Positions 1,867 through 43,392 of a DNA stretch of 48,775 nucleotides are shown one piece after another. This stretch comes from Olsenella uli (GTDB taxonomy: Bacteria; Actinomycetota; Coriobacteriia; Coriobacteriales; Atopobiaceae), in NCBI RefSeq assembly GCF_016899935.1, contig NZ_JACJJK010000011.1, forward strand, positions 1 to 48,775, given 5' to 3'. The notes under the pieces were generated by a model. It searched no databases and was not told where the DNA came from. It worked only from the letters and a program-made list of their open reading frames with translations. The translations under genes and the position numbers were made by a program. Numbering within the stretch: the stretch's first letter is position 1; each line of letters starts with the position of its first letter.

Positions 1867-2822
1867 ACGCCTGGGACGAGCTGGTGGAGCGCTGCGCGCG
1901 CCGCCGCAACGAGAAGATCGGCCCGCTCTCCGACGAGGCCTACGCCGAGCTGCTGCTCGCGGTGCGCCAGAATCCCGCCGACTTTGCCGACGAGGCGCCC
2001 GAGCGGGCGCTGCTCGTGCTCGCAGGCGCGCTCGACGCGTGGCGCGCCAGCCTCTCGCGCGACGACCTGCTCGACGACGAGGCCTTCGAGACGGAGCGCT
2101 CCCGGCGCCTCGCCGCCCTGCGCGCGGAGTGCGGGCGCGCCGTCGCGATCGACCCCGACTGCCTCGACGCGCGCCTCGTGGCCCTGAGCGCCGCCGAGCT
2201 TGACCCGGACCGGCTGGGGGCCGCCCTGCTCGACCTGGGCCACGCCCTCCCCGAGGTCGCGCCACCCGACGGCGACGCCTGGGACGACGTCTTCTTCCGC
2301 CCGCGCGTGCGGCTCGGCGCCGCCGTCGCGCGCGCCTGCCTCGACGGGGCGCGCTACCGCATGGCCTCCGCAGCGGCCGAGTGGGTCACGGGCGTCGCGC
2401 CCTCCGACCCGGTCGGGGCGCGCCACACGCACATGCTCGCGTGCGCGCGGCTCGAGGACGAGGCCGGGCTCGGCGCGCTCGAGGCGCGCTGGGCAGGCCG
2501 CGAGAGCGCCTGGTCGCACCTCGCCCGCGTGCTGCTGCTCTACAAGCTGAACCGTCTGACCGCCGCCCAGCGCGCCCTGCGCGGGTTCGACCGCCTCTGC
2601 GACGGCGGCGCCTACGCGCTGCTGCGGCCCGTCTTCGTGGAGCCCTACCTGCCGGACCGCCCGGAGGCGGCCCCGTGCGGCTTCGAGGAGGCGGTCATGG
2701 CCGTGCGCGAGGCGGAGCCGATCATCGCCGACGTCCCCGAGTTCATACCCTGGTGCCAGGAGCGCGACTGGCTGGTCGAGTCGGCGCGCGCCTTCGCGGA
2801 GCGCAGCGACCTGGACTGGTAG
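1863..2822 (+). CDS. Helical-repeat (TPR-like) hypothetical protein, second of a coupled pair
   Basis: 319 residues starting at GTG 1863, which overlaps the upstream stop. The same frame is open far upstream, but that part overlaps the first gene in another frame and has shadow composition, so the coupled GTG is preferred. Helix-pair repeats are visible, for example ECGRAVAIDPDCLDARLVAL and WSHLARVLLLYKLNRLTAAQ. The C-terminus is less repetitive and ends RSDLDW. Soluble and cytoplasmic by composition. No enzyme motif is seen and function is unknown. It could be a scaffold partner of the upstream protein. Confidence 0.78.
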   Translation: MNAWDELVERCARRRNEKIGPLSDEAYAELLLAVRQNPADFADEAPERALLVLAGALDAWRASLSRDDLLDDEAFETERSRRLAALRAECGRAVAIDPDCLDARLVALSAAELDPDRLGAALLDLGHALPEVAPPDGDAWDDVFFRPRVRLGAAVARACLDGARYRMASAAAEWVTGVAPSDPVGARHTHMLACARLEDEAGLGALEARWAGRESAWSHLARVLLLYKLNRLTAAQRALRGFDRLCDGGAYALLRPVFVEPYLPDRPEAAPCGFEEAVMAVREAEPIIADVPEFIPWCQERDWLVESARAFAERSDLDW

Positions 2823-2830
2823 CGAGCCGG

Positions 2831-2841
2831 CGTCCTTCTCG
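2831..2841 (-). repeat. Dispersed 11-mer CGAGAAGRACG
   Basis: Exact copy 9 bases after the stop of the coupled pair. On the coding strand it reads CGTCCTTCTCGCCCGC. Confidence 0.75.
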
Positions 2842-2854
2842 CCCGCGCCTTGGC

Positions 2855-2929
2855 TTCGCTTCCCGTCTTGGGGCGTTTTCGGAAGTGAAACCCGATTCGC
2901 TTCCGCTATTCTGAATCAAGGGAAGCGAA
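2855..2929 (+). promoter_or_regulatory. Operator-like cluster upstream of the Fic gene
   Basis: Four copies of the 9-mer GGAAGYGAA in alternating orientation: TTCGCTTCC at 2855-2863, GGAAGTGAA at 2881-2889, TTCGCTTCC at 2896-2904 and GGAAGCGAA at 2921-2929. Same-orientation copies are 41 and 40 bases apart, about four helical turns. The middle pair overlaps the putative promoter. The likely reader is a DNA-binding repressor, perhaps the Fic protein itself through its C-terminal winged helix. Confidence 0.6.
2885..2912 (+). promoter_or_regulatory. Putative promoter of the Fic gene
   Basis: GTGAAA (2885-2890) and TATTCT (2907-2912) with a 16-base spacer. The inner operator palindrome covers the -35 box and spacer. 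Confidence 0.4.
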
Positions 2930-2964
2930 CCGCGTCGCGCGCACCAAGACAGAGGAGGCTCGAT

Positions 2965-4155
2965 ATGTGGCCAAGCGTCACCTTCGAGGAGGTCAGCTGG
3001 CACATGGACCCCGACGAGCGCGAGCTCATCCCCAAGAGCGCCCGCCGTCGAATCGCGCCCACGTATCGCGCGGCCGTCCCCGCATCTATCGCCGGACTCT
3101 CCCCCGACGTCCCCGCCGACCTCTCGACCCGTATTCGCAAGCTGCTGGTCAGGCTCGCGCGCTTCGACGAGGCCCAGGCGGCGCGCGGCTACGACCTTCC
3201 GGCGCTCCTGCTGCGCAGCGAGTCTGCGGCGAGCTCGCAGATAGAGCGCCTCACGTCGAGCGTGCGCAACGTCGCGCTGGCGGAAATCTCAAAGGACGCC
3301 CCGGCCAACGCCCGCATCGTGCAGGGCAACGTTGCCGCAATGCGCACGGCGCTCTCACTCGCGCCGGATGCGTTGGTCGAGCAGATTCGCGCCATCCACC
3401 GGGCGCTCATCTCCCCCACCGGGGAGTCCTTTGGCGGGCAGATTCGAGACGAGCAGGTCTGGGTCGGCGGCAGCGCGTACAGCCCGCACGGCGCCCTCTT
3501 CGTCCCGCCCGTGCCGGAACGGGTCGAGGCATACCTGGACGACCTCGTCGCCTTTGCCCGACAGGAGGACGTCGACACCGTCGTCAAGGCCGCCGTCGTT
3601 CACGCGCAGTTCGAGACGATCCACCCGTTCATCGACGGCAACGGTCGCACGGGCAGGGTCCTTCTCCACCGTGCCCTGAGACGCGACGGCGTCCTCTCCC
3701 ATGCGACGCTGCCCATCTCCGCCGGGCTGCTCCACGACGTGAAAGACTACATGGCGGCCGTCACGGCATATCAGGACGGCGATCTCACCCCCATCGTCGA
3801 GTGCGTCGTCGGGGCGCTGGAGCTTGCTCTCGTCGTCGGTCAGAGGGTTGCCGACCGAATCGACGCGACCATGTCGAGCTGGGGGCAGGCCATCACGGAG
3901 CGCGCGGGCTCCGCGATCTGGAGGCTCCCCGCCCTGCTGGCGGAGCAGCCCGTGGTCACCGTCTCGTACGTGGCGCGGGGGCTCGGCATCACGCCGCGCG
4001 CGGCGTCCACGCTGGTCGCGCGCGCATGCGAATACGGCATGCTGCGACCCCTCGGCTCGCGACGGCGCGGGGACTACTATCAGAGCGACGAGCTCATCGG
4101 CGTGCTCGAGGAGATAACGAGCGTGCCCGGCATCCGGCGCACGCTCGCCGGGTAG
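2965..4155 (+). CDS. Fic family protein (AMP/phosphate-transfer enzyme) with C-terminal winged helix
   Basis: 396 residues; ATG after a GAGGAGG site. Fic proteins transfer AMP, or less often another phosphate group, from a nucleotide to a target protein hydroxyl. The catalytic loop HPFIDGNGRTGR is complete at residues 220-231, with the flap region VWVGGSAYSPHGALFVPP before it. An inhibitory-helix motif of the (S/T)xxxE(G/N) type is present as S90-SQI-E94, but an Arg follows the Glu instead of Gly or Asn. Residues from about 310 form a helix-turn-helix (VSYVARGLGITPRAASTLVA), typical of stand-alone Fic proteins with self-regulation. The gene stands alone. The cluster at 2855-2929 suggests tight control. 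No antitoxin gene is adjacent. Confidence 0.93.
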   Translation: MWPSVTFEEVSWHMDPDERELIPKSARRRIAPTYRAAVPASIAGLSPDVPADLSTRIRKLLVRLARFDEAQAARGYDLPALLLRSESAASSQIERLTSSVRNVALAEISKDAPANARIVQGNVAAMRTALSLAPDALVEQIRAIHRALISPTGESFGGQIRDEQVWVGGSAYSPHGALFVPPVPERVEAYLDDLVAFARQEDVDTVVKAAVVHAQFETIHPFIDGNGRTGRVLLHRALRRDGVLSHATLPISAGLLHDVKDYMAAVTAYQDGDLTPIVECVVGALELALVVGQRVADRIDATMSSWGQAITERAGSAIWRLPALLAEQPVVTVSYVARGLGITPRAASTLVARACEYGMLRPLGSRRRGDYYQSDELIGVLEEITSVPGIRRTLAG

Positions 4156-4341: not shown

Positions 4342-4433
4342 CGGGCTTGCGGCGATGTCGCGGCCATGCCGTACAATTGCCATGGCACACGTTTGCCGCG
4401 CTTACGTCACCCGGTCCAGACAGGAGGCCACCC

Positions 4434-5087
4434 ATGTTCTGTCCCAACTGCGGGAGCCAGGTTCCCGACGACTCGAGGTTCTGCCCGAGCTGTGGTTCCT
4501 CCTTCGGCGGGGCCACGCCGACCCCCGGCGCGTCCGCGCCCCAGGGCGCGCCCGTCACGCCGCCCGTTCCCGGGCAGGTCCCGGTGCCCTACGCCGCCCC
4601 GGCCCCCGAGATGAAGTGGTACAAGTTCCTGATCTACTTCTCCCTCTTCGCGGGCGCCCTTCTCAGCCTCGGCAACGGCCTCATGGCCTTCATGGGCATG
4701 CAGTACCAGGGCGACGCCGAGTTCGTCTATGCGATGTTCTCCCAGGTCAGAATCATCGACATCGTCTACGGCATCGTCCTTATCGCCTTCGCCGCCGCAA
4801 TGATCTACGTGCGGCAGCAGCTCGCCGGCTTCAAGAAGGGCGCGCCGCGGCTCTTCCTGCTCCTCTGTGGAGCCGAGCTCGCCGCAAGCGTCATCTATAA
4901 CGGCGCGCTCGTCATCATCGTGATGGCCCGCGTCTCTCCCCTGCTGCCCTCCTACATCAGCCCCCTCGACTTTGCGTCTGAGTTCATCTCCTTCTATGAA
5001 ATCCTCGGGTACGTCATAGGGGTCATCATCTACATCGTCCTCAACAAGGTCTACTTCGACAAGCGCGCGTCTCTGTTCACCAACTAG
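4434..5087 (+). CDS. Zinc-ribbon membrane protein
   Basis: 217 residues. The ATG at 4434 sits after AGGAGG; longer upstream versions lack this site. The N-terminus holds a zinc ribbon with two CxxC pairs (CPNC at 3-6 and CPSC at 17-20). A proline- and alanine-rich linker to about residue 57 follows, then about four hydrophobic membrane spans separated by short loops. The layout matches the common zinc_ribbon_2 plus membrane-domain proteins of Gram-positive bacteria, which have no settled function. It stands alone. A GGGCGAGAAGCCC variant of the dispersed motif follows the stop. Confidence 0.85.
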   Translation: MFCPNCGSQVPDDSRFCPSCGSSFGGATPTPGASAPQGAPVTPPVPGQVPVPYAAPAPEMKWYKFLIYFSLFAGALLSLGNGLMAFMGMQYQGDAEFVYAMFSQVRIIDIVYGIVLIAFAAAMIYVRQQLAGFKKGAPRLFLLLCGAELAASVIYNGALVIIVMARVSPLLPSYISPLDFASEFISFYEILGYVIGVIIYIVLNKVYFDKRASLFTN

Positions 5088-6981: not shown

Positions 6982-7833
6982 TCAGCGTTTCTCCTCCGCC
7001 TTCGCACGGTCCCAGAGCTCGTTCAGACGGGCGGTGCCGAGCTCGTCCGGGGACGTGCCCTCGGCGCGGGCGAGCTCCTCCATGCGTGACCAGCGCGCCC
7101 TGAACTTGCGGTTGGAGGCCGCGAGCGCCTCCTCGGCGTCGATCCCCTCGCGGCGGGCGACGTTGACCAGCGCGAAGAGCAGGTCGCCGAACTCCAGGGC
7201 CCGCGCGTCGCTGCCCGGAGCCTCCCGCTCGAACTCGGCGCGCTCCTCGGCCACCTTGTCCCAGACGTCCGCGACGGTCTCCCACTCAAAGCCCGCCTTG
7301 GCCGCGCGCTTGGAGATCTTCTGGGCCTGCATGAGGGCCGGCAGGCTGCGCGGCACGGAGTCGAGGAGCCCGGGCTCCGCGTCCTTCTCGCCCGCCGCCG
7401 CGCGCTCCGCGGCCTTGACCTCGTCCCAGATGTCCTGGACCTCGCCGCCGTCGCCGGCCGCCGCGTGCTCGCCGAAGACGTGCGGGTGACGGCGCACGAG
7501 CTTCTCGTTCAGGCCGTGGATCACGTCGTCGATCGTGAAGGCGCCCTCGTCGGCCGCGATCTGCGCGTGCAGGACCACCTGCTCCAGGACGTCGCCGAGC
7601 TCCTCCACGAGGTGCGCCGCGTCGTCGGCCTCGATGGCGTCCACCGCCTCGTAGGCCTCCTCGACCATGTTGCGCGTGATCGAGCGGTGCGTCTGCTCGC
7701 GGTCCCACGGGCAGCCGTCCGGCTGGCGCAGGCGCCACATCGTCCGGACCAGGCGGTCGAACTCGGGATGCGTGGCCGGGGCGCCCGGGCGCGCGGCGGT
7801 CTCGGCGTCCACGCGGTCAGCGGCTTGGGACAT
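6982..7833 (-). CDS. mazG: MazG nucleoside triphosphate pyrophosphohydrolase
   Basis: 283 residues. MazG hydrolyses (d)NTPs to NMP and pyrophosphate and cleans aberrant nucleotides. The N-terminal domain begins FDRLVRTMWRLRQPDGCPWD, a family hallmark. The metal-binding helix pair EEAYEAVDAIEADD then HLVEELGDVLEQVVLHA gives the EExxE and ExxD ligands. A second, weaker MazG repeat (about 190-250: AKAGFEWETVADVWDKVAEE, then FGDLLFALVNVARR) completes the tandem form seen in E. coli. An exact dispersed 11-mer at 7380-7390 encodes GEKDA in the linker between the domains. Confidence 0.95.
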   Translation of the reverse strand: MSQAADRVDAETAARPGAPATHPEFDRLVRTMWRLRQPDGCPWDREQTHRSITRNMVEEAYEAVDAIEADDAAHLVEELGDVLEQVVLHAQIAADEGAFTIDDVIHGLNEKLVRRHPHVFGEHAAAGDGGEVQDIWDEVKAAERAAAGEKDAEPGLLDSVPRSLPALMQAQKISKRAAKAGFEWETVADVWDKVAEERAEFEREAPGSDARALEFGDLLFALVNVARREGIDAEEALAASNRKFRARWSRMEELARAEGTSPDELGTARLNELWDRAKAEEKR

Positions 7834-7895
7834 GGCGGCTCCTCTCGTCGCGTTTCTCGCGCCCGATTCTACCGCGCCGGGACCTGGTGCGCGCC

Positions 7896-8111
7896 TCCCG
7901 GAATCGCCGGGGTTGTTCCGGGGACGTCCGGGAAACGCCGCCCTTATCGCAACGGGCCCTAAGAAACGTCGCCCTTGTCACGTCCAACTCTAGAAATCCC
8001 GGAGGTTGCGCGCCCGCGAGACCTCCCAGCCGCGCAACCCCGCCAATTTCTAGACACCCCTGGAACAAGGTCCGCTTTTCTCGGAGCGGGAGGCTGCGGA
8101 CGACGCGGCCG
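7896..8111. repeat. 31-bp repeat array, block 1 (three units, hairpin, linker)
   Basis: Three contiguous degenerate 31-bp units at 7896, 7927 and 7958 share a start like TCYRRGAAAC and a middle like CGCCCTTRTC. Next is a hairpin unit 7989-8054, whose arms begin TCTAGAAAT and end ATTTCTAGA (18 of 24 bases pair). A linker of about 57 bp containing GGCTGCGGACGACGCGGCCG closes the block. The units follow one another without spacers. Nothing codes here: the 31-bp period shifts frame at each unit. Confidence 0.8.
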
Positions 8112-8357
8112 TCCGGGAATCGCCGGGGTTGTTCCAAAGGCGTCTAAGAAATGCCGCCCTTGTCGCGGCGGGTTCTAAGAAAGGTCGTCCTTGTCGCGGC
8201 GGGCTCTAGGAAACAGCGACCTTGTCGCGGTTTATCCCGGAATCCCGGAGGTTGCGCGGCTGGACGGCGCTCCGGGTGCGCAAGGCTGGCGATTCCTAGA
8301 AGCCCCTGGGACAAGGCCCGCTTTTCTCGGAGTGGGAGGCTGCGGACGACGCGGCCG
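8112..8357. repeat. 31-bp repeat array, block 2 (four units, hairpin, linker)
   Basis: Units start at 8112, 8143, 8174 and 8205. The hairpin (about 8235-8300) pairs GAATCCCGGAGGTTGCGC with a later GCGCAAGGCTGGCGATTC. The linker repeats CGCTTTTCTCGGAG and GGCTGCGGACGACGCGGCCG almost exactly from block 1. The block length is 246 bp. Confidence 0.85.
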
Positions 8358-8628
8358 TCCGGGAATTGCCGGGGTTGTTGCAGTGACGTCCGGGAAATGC
8401 CGCCCTTGTCGCAAGGGGCTCTAAGAAACGTCGCCCCTGTCACAGCGGACTCTAGGAAACGTTGGCCTTGTCGCAATTATTTCCGGGAATCCCGGAGGTT
8501 GCGCGGCCGCGCAGCGCTCCGGGTGCGCAAGGTCAACGATTCTTAGAAGGCTCCGGGACAAGGGCGCTCTTTCTTGGATCAAAGGGCGGCGCTCCGGGTG
8601 CGCAACCCCGCCGGTTCCTGGAAACGGC
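8358..8628. repeat. 31-bp repeat array, block 3 (four units, hairpin, diverged linker)
   Basis: Units start at 8358, 8389, 8420 and 8451, then a hairpin from 8482 (GGAATCCCGGAGGTTGCGC against GCGCAAGGTCAACGATTC). The linker is diverged and holds a further half-hairpin GCGCTCCGGGTGCGCAACC. It ends at the terminator of the DHA kinase operon. Confidence 0.8.
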
Positions 8629-8658
8629 GGCGGGGAGGGCAGAAGCGCCCTCCCCGCC
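8622..8658 (-). terminator. Intrinsic terminator of the galactitol-PTS/DHA kinase operon
   Basis: Perfect 12-bp stem GGCGGGGAGGGC (8629-8640) and its complement (8647-8658) with a six-base loop, followed on the minus strand by GCCGTTTCC. It lies 23 bases past the stop of the last gene. Confidence 0.75.
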
Positions 8659-8681
8659 GGTCGCGCATCGTGTCCGCAGAG

Positions 8682-10382
8682 CTACTCGGGAAGCACCGTC
8701 CTGATGCAGAGCGCCATGGAGATGGCGCCGGCGTCCGGGGTGCCGAGGCTGCGCTCGGCGGCCGGGCGGGCGCGGCCGACCTTGGGCACCATGGTGGCGG
8801 TGTCTTCGGCGGCCTTCTGCGCGACCTCGGCCGCGGCGGCCCAGGCCTCCTCGAGCGACTTGCCCTCGCCGGCGGCGGCCTCGAGCGCCTCGCCGAACGG
8901 GATCAGCGCGTCGAGCATGGTCTTGTCGCCCCGGTGGGCGCCGCCGAGCGAGAGCATCTTCTCGTAGGCGGCCCGCACGGCCTCGGCGGCGACGGTGGCG
9001 TCGTAGCCCTCGGCCTGGTCGCCCACCACGGCGCCGGCGGCCTCGAGCGCGGAGCCCCAGAGCACGCCGGAGGTGCCGCCGGCCTTGGCGGCCCAGGCGC
9101 GACCGGCCTCGCGCAGCACGGAGCCGGCGGCCGCGCCGCGCTCGCGGGCGTCGCGCGCGGCCTCGGCGGCGAACGTGGAGCCCTTCACCATGCCGCGGCC
9201 GTGGTCGCCGTCACCGGCCACGCCGTCGATCTTGGCGAGCTCCTCCTCGGCGTCGGCGATCGCAGCCTGCATGCGGGCGAACGCGTCGACGATGTAGTCG
9301 GCCGCCTTCTCGGAGGCCTCGGAGCCCTGCTCGAAGGTGTCGACCTGTTCGGTGAGCTCGGCGTAGACCTTGCGCTCGCCGGCGGCCATGGAGCTCGCCC
9401 CCTTGCGGAACGAGGCCGTGTCGCAAGGCGCGCTCCAGTAGGCCTCCAGCTCGTCGTCGAGGTACTCCACGGCCAGCGCGATGCCCTCCATGTCGAGCGA
9501 GGTCACGTACTCGCCCACGAGCGGCTCGACCAGCGTGTAGCCGCGCTCCTCGAGCAGCGCGCGCACGGTGCCCCACACCACGAAGAGCTCCTCGTACTTG
9601 GTGGAGCCCAGGCCGTCGAGAATGACGGCGATGCGCTTGGAGTCGTCCGCCGGCGCCTCGGCGAGCACGCGCTCCACGAGGAGCTCGGCCACCTCGGACG
9701 CGCTGGCGAGGTCGGTCTCGCCCACGCCCGGCTCGCCGTGGATGCCCTGGCCGACCTCCATCTTGCCCTGGGGCACATGGAAGAGCGGCGCGTCGCCGCC
9801 CGGCAGGGTGCAGCCGCGGAAGCCCATCGACATGGTGCGGGTGCGCGCGTTGGCCTTCTCGGTAATGCGCACCAGCTCGTCAAAGGAGACGCCGGCGGCA
9901 GCGGCCGCGCCGGCGGCCTTGAAGACCATGAAGGTGCCCACGTTGCCGCGGCGCTTCTCGGCCTCCTCGGGCTTGGCGGAGGCCACGTCGTCGGTGATGT
10001 AGAACGTGCGGGCGTCCACGCCCTCCTCGACGAGGCGGTCGCGCGCCATGTTGAAGTTCATCTTGTCGCCGGCGTAGTTGCCGCCCACGATGAAGATGCC
10101 CGTGCCCTGGTCCACGGAACGGGCCACGCCGAGCACGTCCTCGGTCGAGGGCGAGGTGAAGACGTTGCCCACCACGGTGGCGTCCATGAAGCCGTCGCCG
10201 ATAATGCCGCAGAACGCAGGGTAGTGGCCCGAGCCGCCGCCGTTGATGACGGCGATCTTGCCCTCGGCCATCTTGGTCGCGCGCGCGACGCCGCCGGGGA
10301 CCTCGACCACGTAGTCGGGGTAGGCCGCGACGTAGCCCCTGAGCATGTCCTCGCGGAACGTCTTGGGATCGTTGTAGAGCAT
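8682..10382 (-). CDS. Fused DhaK-DhaL dihydroxyacetone kinase (or short-ketose kinase)
   Basis: 566 residues, full length for the ATP-dependent single-chain kinases. DhaK domain about 1-330: NGGGSGHYPA (48-56) and QGIHGEPG with H215, the residue that binds the substrate carbonyl covalently. DhaL domain about 345-566: ATP/Mg site AGDGDHGRGM (389-398) and the AGGTSGVLWG loop. The ribosome site AAGGAGG overlaps the stop of the upstream dhaL, so the genes are coupled. This is the last gene of the operon. A kinase of this build can act on dihydroxyacetone or on erythrulose-like sugars. That a separate DhaK and DhaL pair is also present argues for two substrates. No DhaM is seen, so ATP is the probable donor. 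Confidence 0.93.
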   Translation of the reverse strand: MLYNDPKTFREDMLRGYVAAYPDYVVEVPGGVARATKMAEGKIAVINGGGSGHYPAFCGIIGDGFMDATVVGNVFTSPSTEDVLGVARSVDQGTGIFIVGGNYAGDKMNFNMARDRLVEEGVDARTFYITDDVASAKPEEAEKRRGNVGTFMVFKAAGAAAAAGVSFDELVRITEKANARTRTMSMGFRGCTLPGGDAPLFHVPQGKMEVGQGIHGEPGVGETDLASASEVAELLVERVLAEAPADDSKRIAVILDGLGSTKYEELFVVWGTVRALLEERGYTLVEPLVGEYVTSLDMEGIALAVEYLDDELEAYWSAPCDTASFRKGASSMAAGERKVYAELTEQVDTFEQGSEASEKAADYIVDAFARMQAAIADAEEELAKIDGVAGDGDHGRGMVKGSTFAAEAARDARERGAAAGSVLREAGRAWAAKAGGTSGVLWGSALEAAGAVVGDQAEGYDATVAAEAVRAAYEKMLSLGGAHRGDKTMLDALIPFGEALEAAAGEGKSLEEAWAAAAEVAQKAAEDTATMVPKVGRARPAAERSLGTPDAGAISMALCIRTVLPE

Positions 10383-19178: not shown

Positions 19179-19194
19179 GCGGAAGGCCGGGGGC

Positions 19195-19410
19195 TCCGGG
19201 AATCGCCGGGGTTGTCACGGGGGCGTCTAGAAAATGGGGCCCTTGGTGCGCCGGGTTCTAAAAAATCCCATCTTTGTCGCAGCGGCGTCTAGAAAACGCC
19301 GCCCTTGTCGCCCTGCGCCTAGAAATCCGAGGGGTTGCACGCTTGCACGGCGCTCCGAGCGCGCAAGGCCGGCGATTCCTAGAGCCGACCGCGCCAAGGT
19401 CCGGGATTCT
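19195..19410. repeat. 31-bp repeat array, second locus (four units, hairpin, short tail)
   Basis: Units start at 19195, 19226, 19257 and 19288. A hairpin unit 19319-19383 runs from CTAGAAATCCGAGGGGTTGC to GCGCAAGGCCGGCGATTCCT. A short tail CGCCAAGGTCCGGGATTCTT ends at the dispersed 11-mer. Order and spacing match the blocks at 7896-8628. It fills the gene-free stretch 19094-19441. Confidence 0.85.
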
Positions 19411-19418
19411 TAGACGGG

Positions 19419-26123: not shown

Positions 26124-26266
26124 AGGTTATGCGCACACGCAGAGGTTATGCGCACGCCGCGACGCGAGGTTCTTCTCGCCCGGCGCATCTGCCTGCGGAT
26201 ATGAATACCTCAACTGTGCGCACACCCTTCGGCGGTGCGCACAACCTACGGGATCGCGCATAACCT
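26124..26266. repeat. Inverted repeat cluster between convergent yitT and mfd genes
   Basis: AGGTTATGCGCAC at 26124-26136 and 26143-26155 face GTGCGCACAACCT at 26235-26247 and GCGCATAACCT at 26256-26266, with another GTGCGCAC at 26216-26223. The two pairs can fold into a long hairpin. It likely terminates transcription from both sides, with a near-copy of the 11-mer in the middle (26169-26178). Confidence 0.6.
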
Positions 26267-26296
26267 GCGAGCGGCGCGTCCCCAACCGCCAGCGGG

Positions 26297-26307
26297 CGAG
26301 AAGGACG
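26297..26307 (+). repeat. Dispersed 11-mer CGAGAAGRACG
   Basis: Exact copy nine bases past the mfd stop; the mfd strand reads CGTCCTTCTCGCCCGC. Confidence 0.75.
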
Positions 26308-26315
26308 TCCGCTCG

Positions 26316-43300: not shown

Positions 43301-43392
43301 TTACTAAGAACGGTGGTTTTACATTAGTAGGAATATCGAATTTTTGTTAGTAGAAATATTGGATTTTCGTTAGTAGATTCCGAACACGCCGG
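43301..43392 (-). promoter_or_regulatory. 23-base iterons and AT-rich promoter region
   Basis: Units start at 43301, 43324, 43347 and 43370 with TTAGTAG (first TTACTAA). The middle pair matches TTAGTAGRAATATYGRATTT closely. It is a local AT-rich patch in a GC-rich genome, directly upstream of the DUF4143 gene. Confidence 0.6.

Follow-up and report, generated by a model that had tools for sequence, protein, structure and literature searches.

The intergenic array of 31-bp units at positions 7894–8624 of the window (the whole 48,775-nucleotide stretch of Olsenella uli DNA that was analysed) is probably, judging from the sequence, a cis array of sites for a sequence-specific protein that binds cooperatively along one face of double-stranded DNA. 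Three features together argue for this reading: a ladder of spacings near 10.5 bp, the polarity of the units, and the constraint on their motif. The repeat of the unit amounts to three helical turns (31 bp) or, in the dialects of other species, four (41–42 bp).

A profile scan of 35 columns, with the fifth-best score on reversed sequence as cut-off, resolves the array into three modules, FFFFrr, FFFFFrr and FFFFFrrr, in each of which a run of 31-bp units gives way to inverted copies of the same unit. Module 1 (7894–8087) has forward units starting at 7894, 7925, 7956 and 7987 and inverted units with their 5′ ends at 8056 and 8087. Module 2 (8110–8333), which begins 23 nt past the 5′ end of the last unit of module 1, has forward units at 8110, 8141, 8172, 8203 and 8233 and inverted units at 8302 and 8333, and module 3 (8356–8624) has forward units at 8356, 8387, 8418, 8449 and 8480 and inverted units at 8549, 8580 and 8624. 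The centre, taken from the start of the last forward unit to that of the first inverted one, is 69 nt in all three; the forward steps are 31 bp with the single exception of a step of 30 in module 2, and the final step of module 3, at 44 nt, lies off the helical ladder. The repeats lie far beyond what chance would give, as TRF scores of 82, 113 and 719 show. The original prediction, of three blocks of contiguous 31-bp units offset by 216 and 246 bases and lacking spacers, is borne out by the scan: the phase of 31 bp is kept, and the units, about 0.6 identical, follow each other directly. Its embedded hairpins of about 66 bases, by contrast, are the last forward unit lying opposite the first inverted one, that is, the meeting point of the arms, where pairing is weakly above the level given by the shared consensus. 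The stretch of about 56 bases described as a linker does exist, but it contains another inverted 31-bp unit.

On the left the array faces the 5′ end of mazG (6982–7833, minus strand), a nucleotide pyrophosphohydrolase gene (Pfam MazG, 1.6e-32), and on the right the 3′ end of a Dak1-Dak2 dihydroxyacetone kinase gene (8682–10382, minus strand; Pfam Dak1, 2.5e-102). A perfect 13-bp GC-rich inverted repeat (8628–8659) between the stop codon of the kinase gene and the array is not part of the array, because a similar one is present at an orthologous locus without an array (L034). A second array in the window (19193–19416) has forward units at 19193, 19224, 19255 and 19286 and inverted units at 19385 and 19416; its measured centre is 99 nt, and a weak fifth forward unit near 19316, seen by eye, would bring this to 69. 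The window also holds a different inverted repeat family (AGGTTGTGCGCAC and its inverse) at 26172–26310, between mfd and a YitT gene, and, in what is a GC-rich genome, an AT-rich tandem repeat of 23 bp at 43324–43377 (TRF).

BLAST of the window stretch against its own genome gave 81 matching pieces on many contigs, and the profile applied to the fetched loci found 383 units in 37 clusters, with 40 two-armed modules. These are the arrays reached by BLAST from the window array, and they number at least 36, two of them in the window, as one array (L026) is counted twice among the clusters; in another (L015:12739) the second arm alone exceeds the cut-off. All 40 modules converge, with forward units first and inverted units second, and the six junctions from an inverted to a forward unit occur only between the modules of three compound arrays (that of the window, L016 and L030). 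The same-strand step is 31 in 261 of 285 cases and the centre 69 or 70 in 33 of 40. The consensus of the unit, TTCYRRGAAW-CGCCG-N-CCTTGTCNC followed by 6–7 free positions, has two parts: a 9-bp near-palindrome, TTCYRRGAA, with a pyrimidine-purine centre that is mostly CG or TA at the step, and, about 1.5 turns away, a polar element CCTTGTC, in which TTGCGC takes the place of TTGTC in many innermost units. Units of the same arm are barely closer to each other than random units (0.63 versus 0.60); motif and phase are retained, and the bases outside the motifs have become almost as dissimilar as those of random units. Such near-saturated units with a kept motif and spacing would be the mark of long purifying selection on a binding site rather than of recent expansion.

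The spacings in related genomes follow the same rule. For the 31-type, in 84 clusters of five genomes, the same-strand step is 31 in 546 of 580 cases. Two genomes (G004 and G016; 18 arrays) carry a 41-type with the same near-palindrome, in which 69 of 86 steps are 41 and 15 are 31, with one 31-bp step near the centre in 15 of the 18 arrays, and in which the centre is again 69 or 70 (15 of 19). Where the centres of these two types depart from the mode, they do so by −11 (three times), −10 (four times), +11, +20 and +21 and by no other amount among the values kept, centres of 10, 28, 29 and 99–102 and same-strand steps of 60–64 having been set aside as overlapping hits or missed units. A more distant dialect is found in four further genomes (G009, G010, G023 and G026; 24 arrays), where a diverged unit, GCCGAGAAA-N9-CTGTACC, recurs every 41–42 bp. 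Here the rarer steps are mostly 31–32 and 51–54, the centres of 65, 74–75, 86–87 and 96–97 form a ladder of single turns, and forward arms precede inverted arms in 23 of 24 arrays, the remaining one (L337) having one arm only.

When all departures from the modal spacing are pooled, 47 of 52 fall no more than 1.5 bp from a multiple of 10.5, and the best period is 10.52; once orthologous and duplicated arrays are collapsed, 36 of 41 remain on the ladder, the best period is 10.6, and none of 200,000 simulations was as phased. The spacings come in whole helical turns, and so do most departures from them, as expected of a cooperative array on one face. Also left out of the fits were the 42-bp dialect's steps of 82–84 and 104, and any step that differed from the mode by 2 or less. 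Arrays were collapsed as orthologous (L027/L208/L225, L205/L234, L330/L331 and L332/L357) or as near-copies (L346/L352, 0.91 alike); for the 31- and 41-types the grouping was made by hand from shared flanks, apart from L020/L021, which were joined for their like step patterns, without a signal of sequence similarity. The same-strand deviations of the 31-type, taken alone, are not significant (six values, 19,209 of 200,000 simulations; four values when collapsed, 60,320 of 200,000). The steps that leave the ladder are +3 and +13 in the 31-type, of which +13 occurs in the window array; the 42-bp dialect has three such values, 29, 38 and 46. With the phase of 31 bp kept and the departures mostly whole turns, the suggestion in the original prediction that protein could bind along one face of the DNA is strongly supported.

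An autocorrelation of the genus loci that makes no use of the motif peaks at 31, 40/41 and 62, in part owing to this family and in part to units that look unrelated; only lags not divisible by 3 were counted, because codon lags confound loci rich in coding sequence. The same scan showed repeat families with inverted arms at L315, L314, L278, L048 and L050, the first two of these being arrays of the 42-bp dialect. Long 31-bp tandem arrays of an unrelated unit (GACTTGTGCGGC) occur in another lineage, at about 2709–3100 and 4377–4590 of a locus from Coriobacteriaceae RUG13628 (L059), and downstream of coaD in one genome (G007, L259) there are near-identical 38-bp tandem units, off the ladder, adjoining units that resemble the present family.

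The arrays have a marked position with respect to genes, as called by a purpose-made codon-usage caller trained on the window. Gene 3′ ends that face an array (n = 118) lie at a median distance of 24 nt, with 70 of the 118 within 30 nt and 10 of them overlapped by an array at the stop codon, compared to a median of 131 nt and none within 30 nt for the 88 gene 5′ ends (p = 1.7e-18). A similar picture emerges for the 42-bp dialect, with a median of 64 nt and 9 of 21 within 30 nt for 3′ ends, and a median of 207.5 nt and 0 of 20 for 5′ ends. None of 104 arrays (a set that counts L026 as two pieces) shares more than 45 nt with a predicted gene, and neither do any of the 24 in the 42-bp dialect, in agreement with the earlier view that the repeats are not protein coding. 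The annotated neighbours, 20 of the 70 genes flanking arrays in the genome itself, are ordinary and mostly metabolic, and neither among these nor among ten genes around the arrays of the window and of genome G008 did Pfam give a recurring class of neighbour that would explain the arrays. Separately, CTTCTCG is, in this genus, the 7-mer most often met in the first 80 nt past a stop codon: it occurs 29 times behind 194 genes in the fetched stretches of this genome and 29 times behind 135 genes of other species, and nearly absent there from outgroups (0 behind 124 genes) and Collinsella (1 behind 103), where the gene calls are less sure. The 7-mer is similar to the second element of the 41-bp units and stands in the window at, for example, 676, 748, 2835, 5096, 26172 and 26297, as well as at other Thermophilibacter loci.

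A location directly behind stop codons is also what one would expect of bidirectional transcription terminators, working through a protein roadblock or a U-tract at gene ends. Convergent gene pairs flank 26 of the 102 arrays for which both flanks are known and, in the genome itself, 11 of 37 clusters compared to 21 of 190 neighbouring pairs, a background that includes pairs internal to operons; a tentative association is seen with terminator-like matches, at 14 of 41 gene ends on the array side and at 6 of 47 others. However, 7 of the 37 clusters (one array being counted twice) lie between divergent genes, and the terminator-like matches in the window are pieces of units and barely exceed those in shuffled sequence (3 versus 1.2). 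Moreover, the kinase gene beside the window array keeps a hairpin of its own and so need not rely on the array alone for termination. On balance we regard plain terminators as an unlikely account of the arrays.

The 31/41 model has matches in 13 of the family's 140 genomes, namely 11 of the 31 in the genus and two weak cases elsewhere; the arrays fetched from nine genomes (G003, G004, G009, G010, G014, G016, G023, G025 and G026) are a part of those present. The 31-type model has no match in 20 of the 31 genus genomes, close relatives included, and the arrays are on this account dispensable. In a tree of mfd, species rich in 31-type arrays, rich in 41-type arrays, nearly array-free and array-free fall together in one well-supported clade; its labels show G009, G010, G023 and G026 as having few or none despite their 42-bp dialect. 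One genome with two arrays by the model, G029, is sister to G000 in this tree and carries a 41-bp-type array at marR.

We found 45 pairs of arrays from different genomes that have both flanking genes in common, several of them arising from one site that three or more genomes share, and these include a 31-type array paired with a 41-type at coaD. At marR, arrays of the 31-type, the 41-type and the 42-bp dialect stand at the same gene in different species, and for 4 of the 24 arrays in the 42-bp dialect, located at three sites, there is a 31- or 41-type array with the same two flanking genes. When 30 pairs picked by hand, mostly from these 45, were aligned, orthologous arrays of G004 and G016 agreed at 0.86–0.91, and most of those between G000 and other genomes were no closer than non-orthologous arrays. 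In G008, two arrays bound a 6.6-kb sugar-uptake segment (L199:5558–12179 versus L214) that is 98% identical to G014, the identity dropping at the arrays; the segment, which holds HAD, mannose-type PTS, GntR and YitT genes with an array at each end, looks like a recent transfer. Arrays thus appear to be inherited in place, sometimes gained by transfer, lost altogether from some species, and rewritten collectively. At the sites downstream of coaD and mfd (L240–L299), some array-free species have other hairpin-like repeats, for example inverted TTGACAATATAACC and GTGCAAAATC.

A family that is dispersed, intergenic, high in copy number and patchy between species could also be a selfish, non-autonomous mobile repeat of the REP/BIME or MITE kind, its units being recognised by a transposase whose complex imposes the phasing, and the segment flanked by two arrays in G008 might be taken in the same way. 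Against this, target-site duplications are absent from 101 arrays, with counts for each length between 2 and 12 falling inside the permuted range, the number of units varies freely, and array positions are common to several species even though the unit sequences are saturated. A RAYT/Y1 transposase (Y1_Tnp) is present in 28 of 31 genomes, G000 included, and none was found in the array-rich G014, which is 98% complete. We consider mobility of this kind quite improbable as an explanation of the arrays, and the specific version in which RAYT drives them as REPs was rejected after the genus-wide test, as RAYT does not follow the arrays.

The recurrence of arrays at marR raises the question of whether they are operators for the MarR-type regulator encoded beside one of them. 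All seven genomes of the array-rich clade with 31- or 41-type arrays have one upstream of marR, even G029 with its two arrays, and the presumed recognition helix, VV(T/A)KLE, has T in these seven and A in the four array-less members of the clade that were checked. However, marR occurs in 31 of 31 genomes, the A form is also that of the species with the 42-bp dialect, the remainder of the helix is identical in array-bearing and array-less members of the clade, and the annotated neighbours of other arrays are unrelated metabolic genes. In addition, a distinct conserved box, GGTACC, lies over the −35 before marR in all 13 species compared, and is likely to be the operator of the MarR protein itself. 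This box and the presence of the gene throughout the genus make binding of the MarR protein to the arrays very unlikely in our view. A second box similar to GGTACC precedes it upstream of marR (L300–L329) in most of the 13 species.

Other candidate binders fared no better. The divergent neighbour of marR (P0004) and three other neighbours without a protein family yielded no candidate, one of them (L014u) recurring in array loci of G003, G026 and G009. Lrp/AsnC was found in 0 of 31 genus genomes, with 11 of 14 controls positive, and ParB/Noc was rejected because ParB_N, present in 29 of the 31 genomes (20 with one match, 9 with two), does not follow the presence of arrays.

That the arms pair into a long hairpin, as a structured RNA (the other possibility raised in the original prediction) or a cruciform, is scarcely credible: the arms are inverted copies and hence able to pair, the innermost units are slightly more alike than chance (0.60 versus 0.564, p = 0.0035) and no more than 32 of 500 shuffles match the whole hairpin in covariation score, but pairing between the arms, at 66.2% versus 65.3% in column shuffles (71 of 500 as high), and the counts of changed pairs are at shuffle level, outer units of equal rank agree no better than random ones (0.596 versus 0.598) with second-rank pairs below chance, steps of whole turns near 10.5 bp have no reason in the length of a loop, the 560 units hold no covariation for a stem within the unit, and Rfam finds nothing in the array at gathering score. 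The strongest couplings between columns are those of neighbouring bases, 4–5 (CG/TA) and 16–17, rather than of columns that could pair.

The broad idea of a repeated protein-binding site is a familiar one, and several known systems resemble the arrays in part. The sites of ParB and Noc are dispersed palindromes with a TTCC..GGAA-like core, bound by a chromosome-organising protein. The arrays are likewise dispersed and have such a core, which differs in being 9 bp long with an odd centre and in having a second element and phased repetition. CRISPR arrays are also tandem repeats of about 30 bp, though the present units are contiguous without spacers, about 60% alike, and inverted in the second arm. 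BIMEs are built of palindromic units in alternating orientation and are tied to RAYT, in the account given in part of PMC2817692, and the same part of that article describes REPs and BIMEs as dispersed intergenic repeats in both orientations, protein-binding and species-specific in sequence, features that the arrays share, protein binding being predicted in their case. The present unit, in contrast, is polar, 31 bp long and carries a 9-bp near-palindrome with no imperfect-palindrome stem-loop (560 units); the arms are uniform in direction with one switch per module where REPs alternate (PMC2817692, in part); and the arrays are locked to whole helical turns, with no RAYT found in the array-rich G014. 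The closest mechanical likeness is to Lrp-type wrapping, for which the portion of PMC2995911 consulted describes Ss-LrpB operators as regular sites two or three turns apart, with dimers on one face and DNA wrapping. Here the arrays differ in numbering tens, in their polar units and two converging arms, in having versions of three or four turns, and in belonging to a genus with Lrp/AsnC in none of its 31 genomes. Because the BIME features (palindromic units, alternation, RAYT) are not those of the arrays, and because none of the open-access literature matches listed names such arrays in its title or the start of its abstract, they would seem to form a class apart from known kinds of repeat.

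Returning to the phased protein-binding array, we envisage that a putative trans factor links adjacent sites to each other and could also wrap the DNA or bridge it, the two arms meeting mid-way. The resulting complex could act as a two-sided boundary, either as a roadblock to transcription or supercoiling or, perhaps, as an anchor that organises the chromosome. Lying immediately after stop codons and away from promoters, the arrays probably serve as a boundary or roadblock where genes end, with the organisation of the chromosome also to be considered. The factor and its sites would have changed together in each lineage, rewriting the length and motif of the unit throughout the genome while the positions of the arrays were kept.

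Put tentatively, at somewhat less than even confidence, the arrays would be a class of nucleoprotein element of the Atopobiaceae, in which converging arms of polar sites, locked to the helix, persist over long times at the same gene ends as a fast-changing trans factor alters motif and spacing (three or four turns) at all arrays of a genome together, a bacterial counterpart of the rapidly evolving recognition systems of centromeres and hotspots. If true, large sequence-specific nucleoprotein structures for which the searches turned up neither a binder nor a role exist in ordinary gut bacteria, with a helical constraint that can be read from their genomes, and each dialect predicts one specific protein. 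The arrays would then document, in nature, the way in which a DNA-binding protein and its many targets may change together. To our knowledge, little is known of gene-end insulation or chromosome organisation in this bacterial class, and the arrays may explain one or the other.
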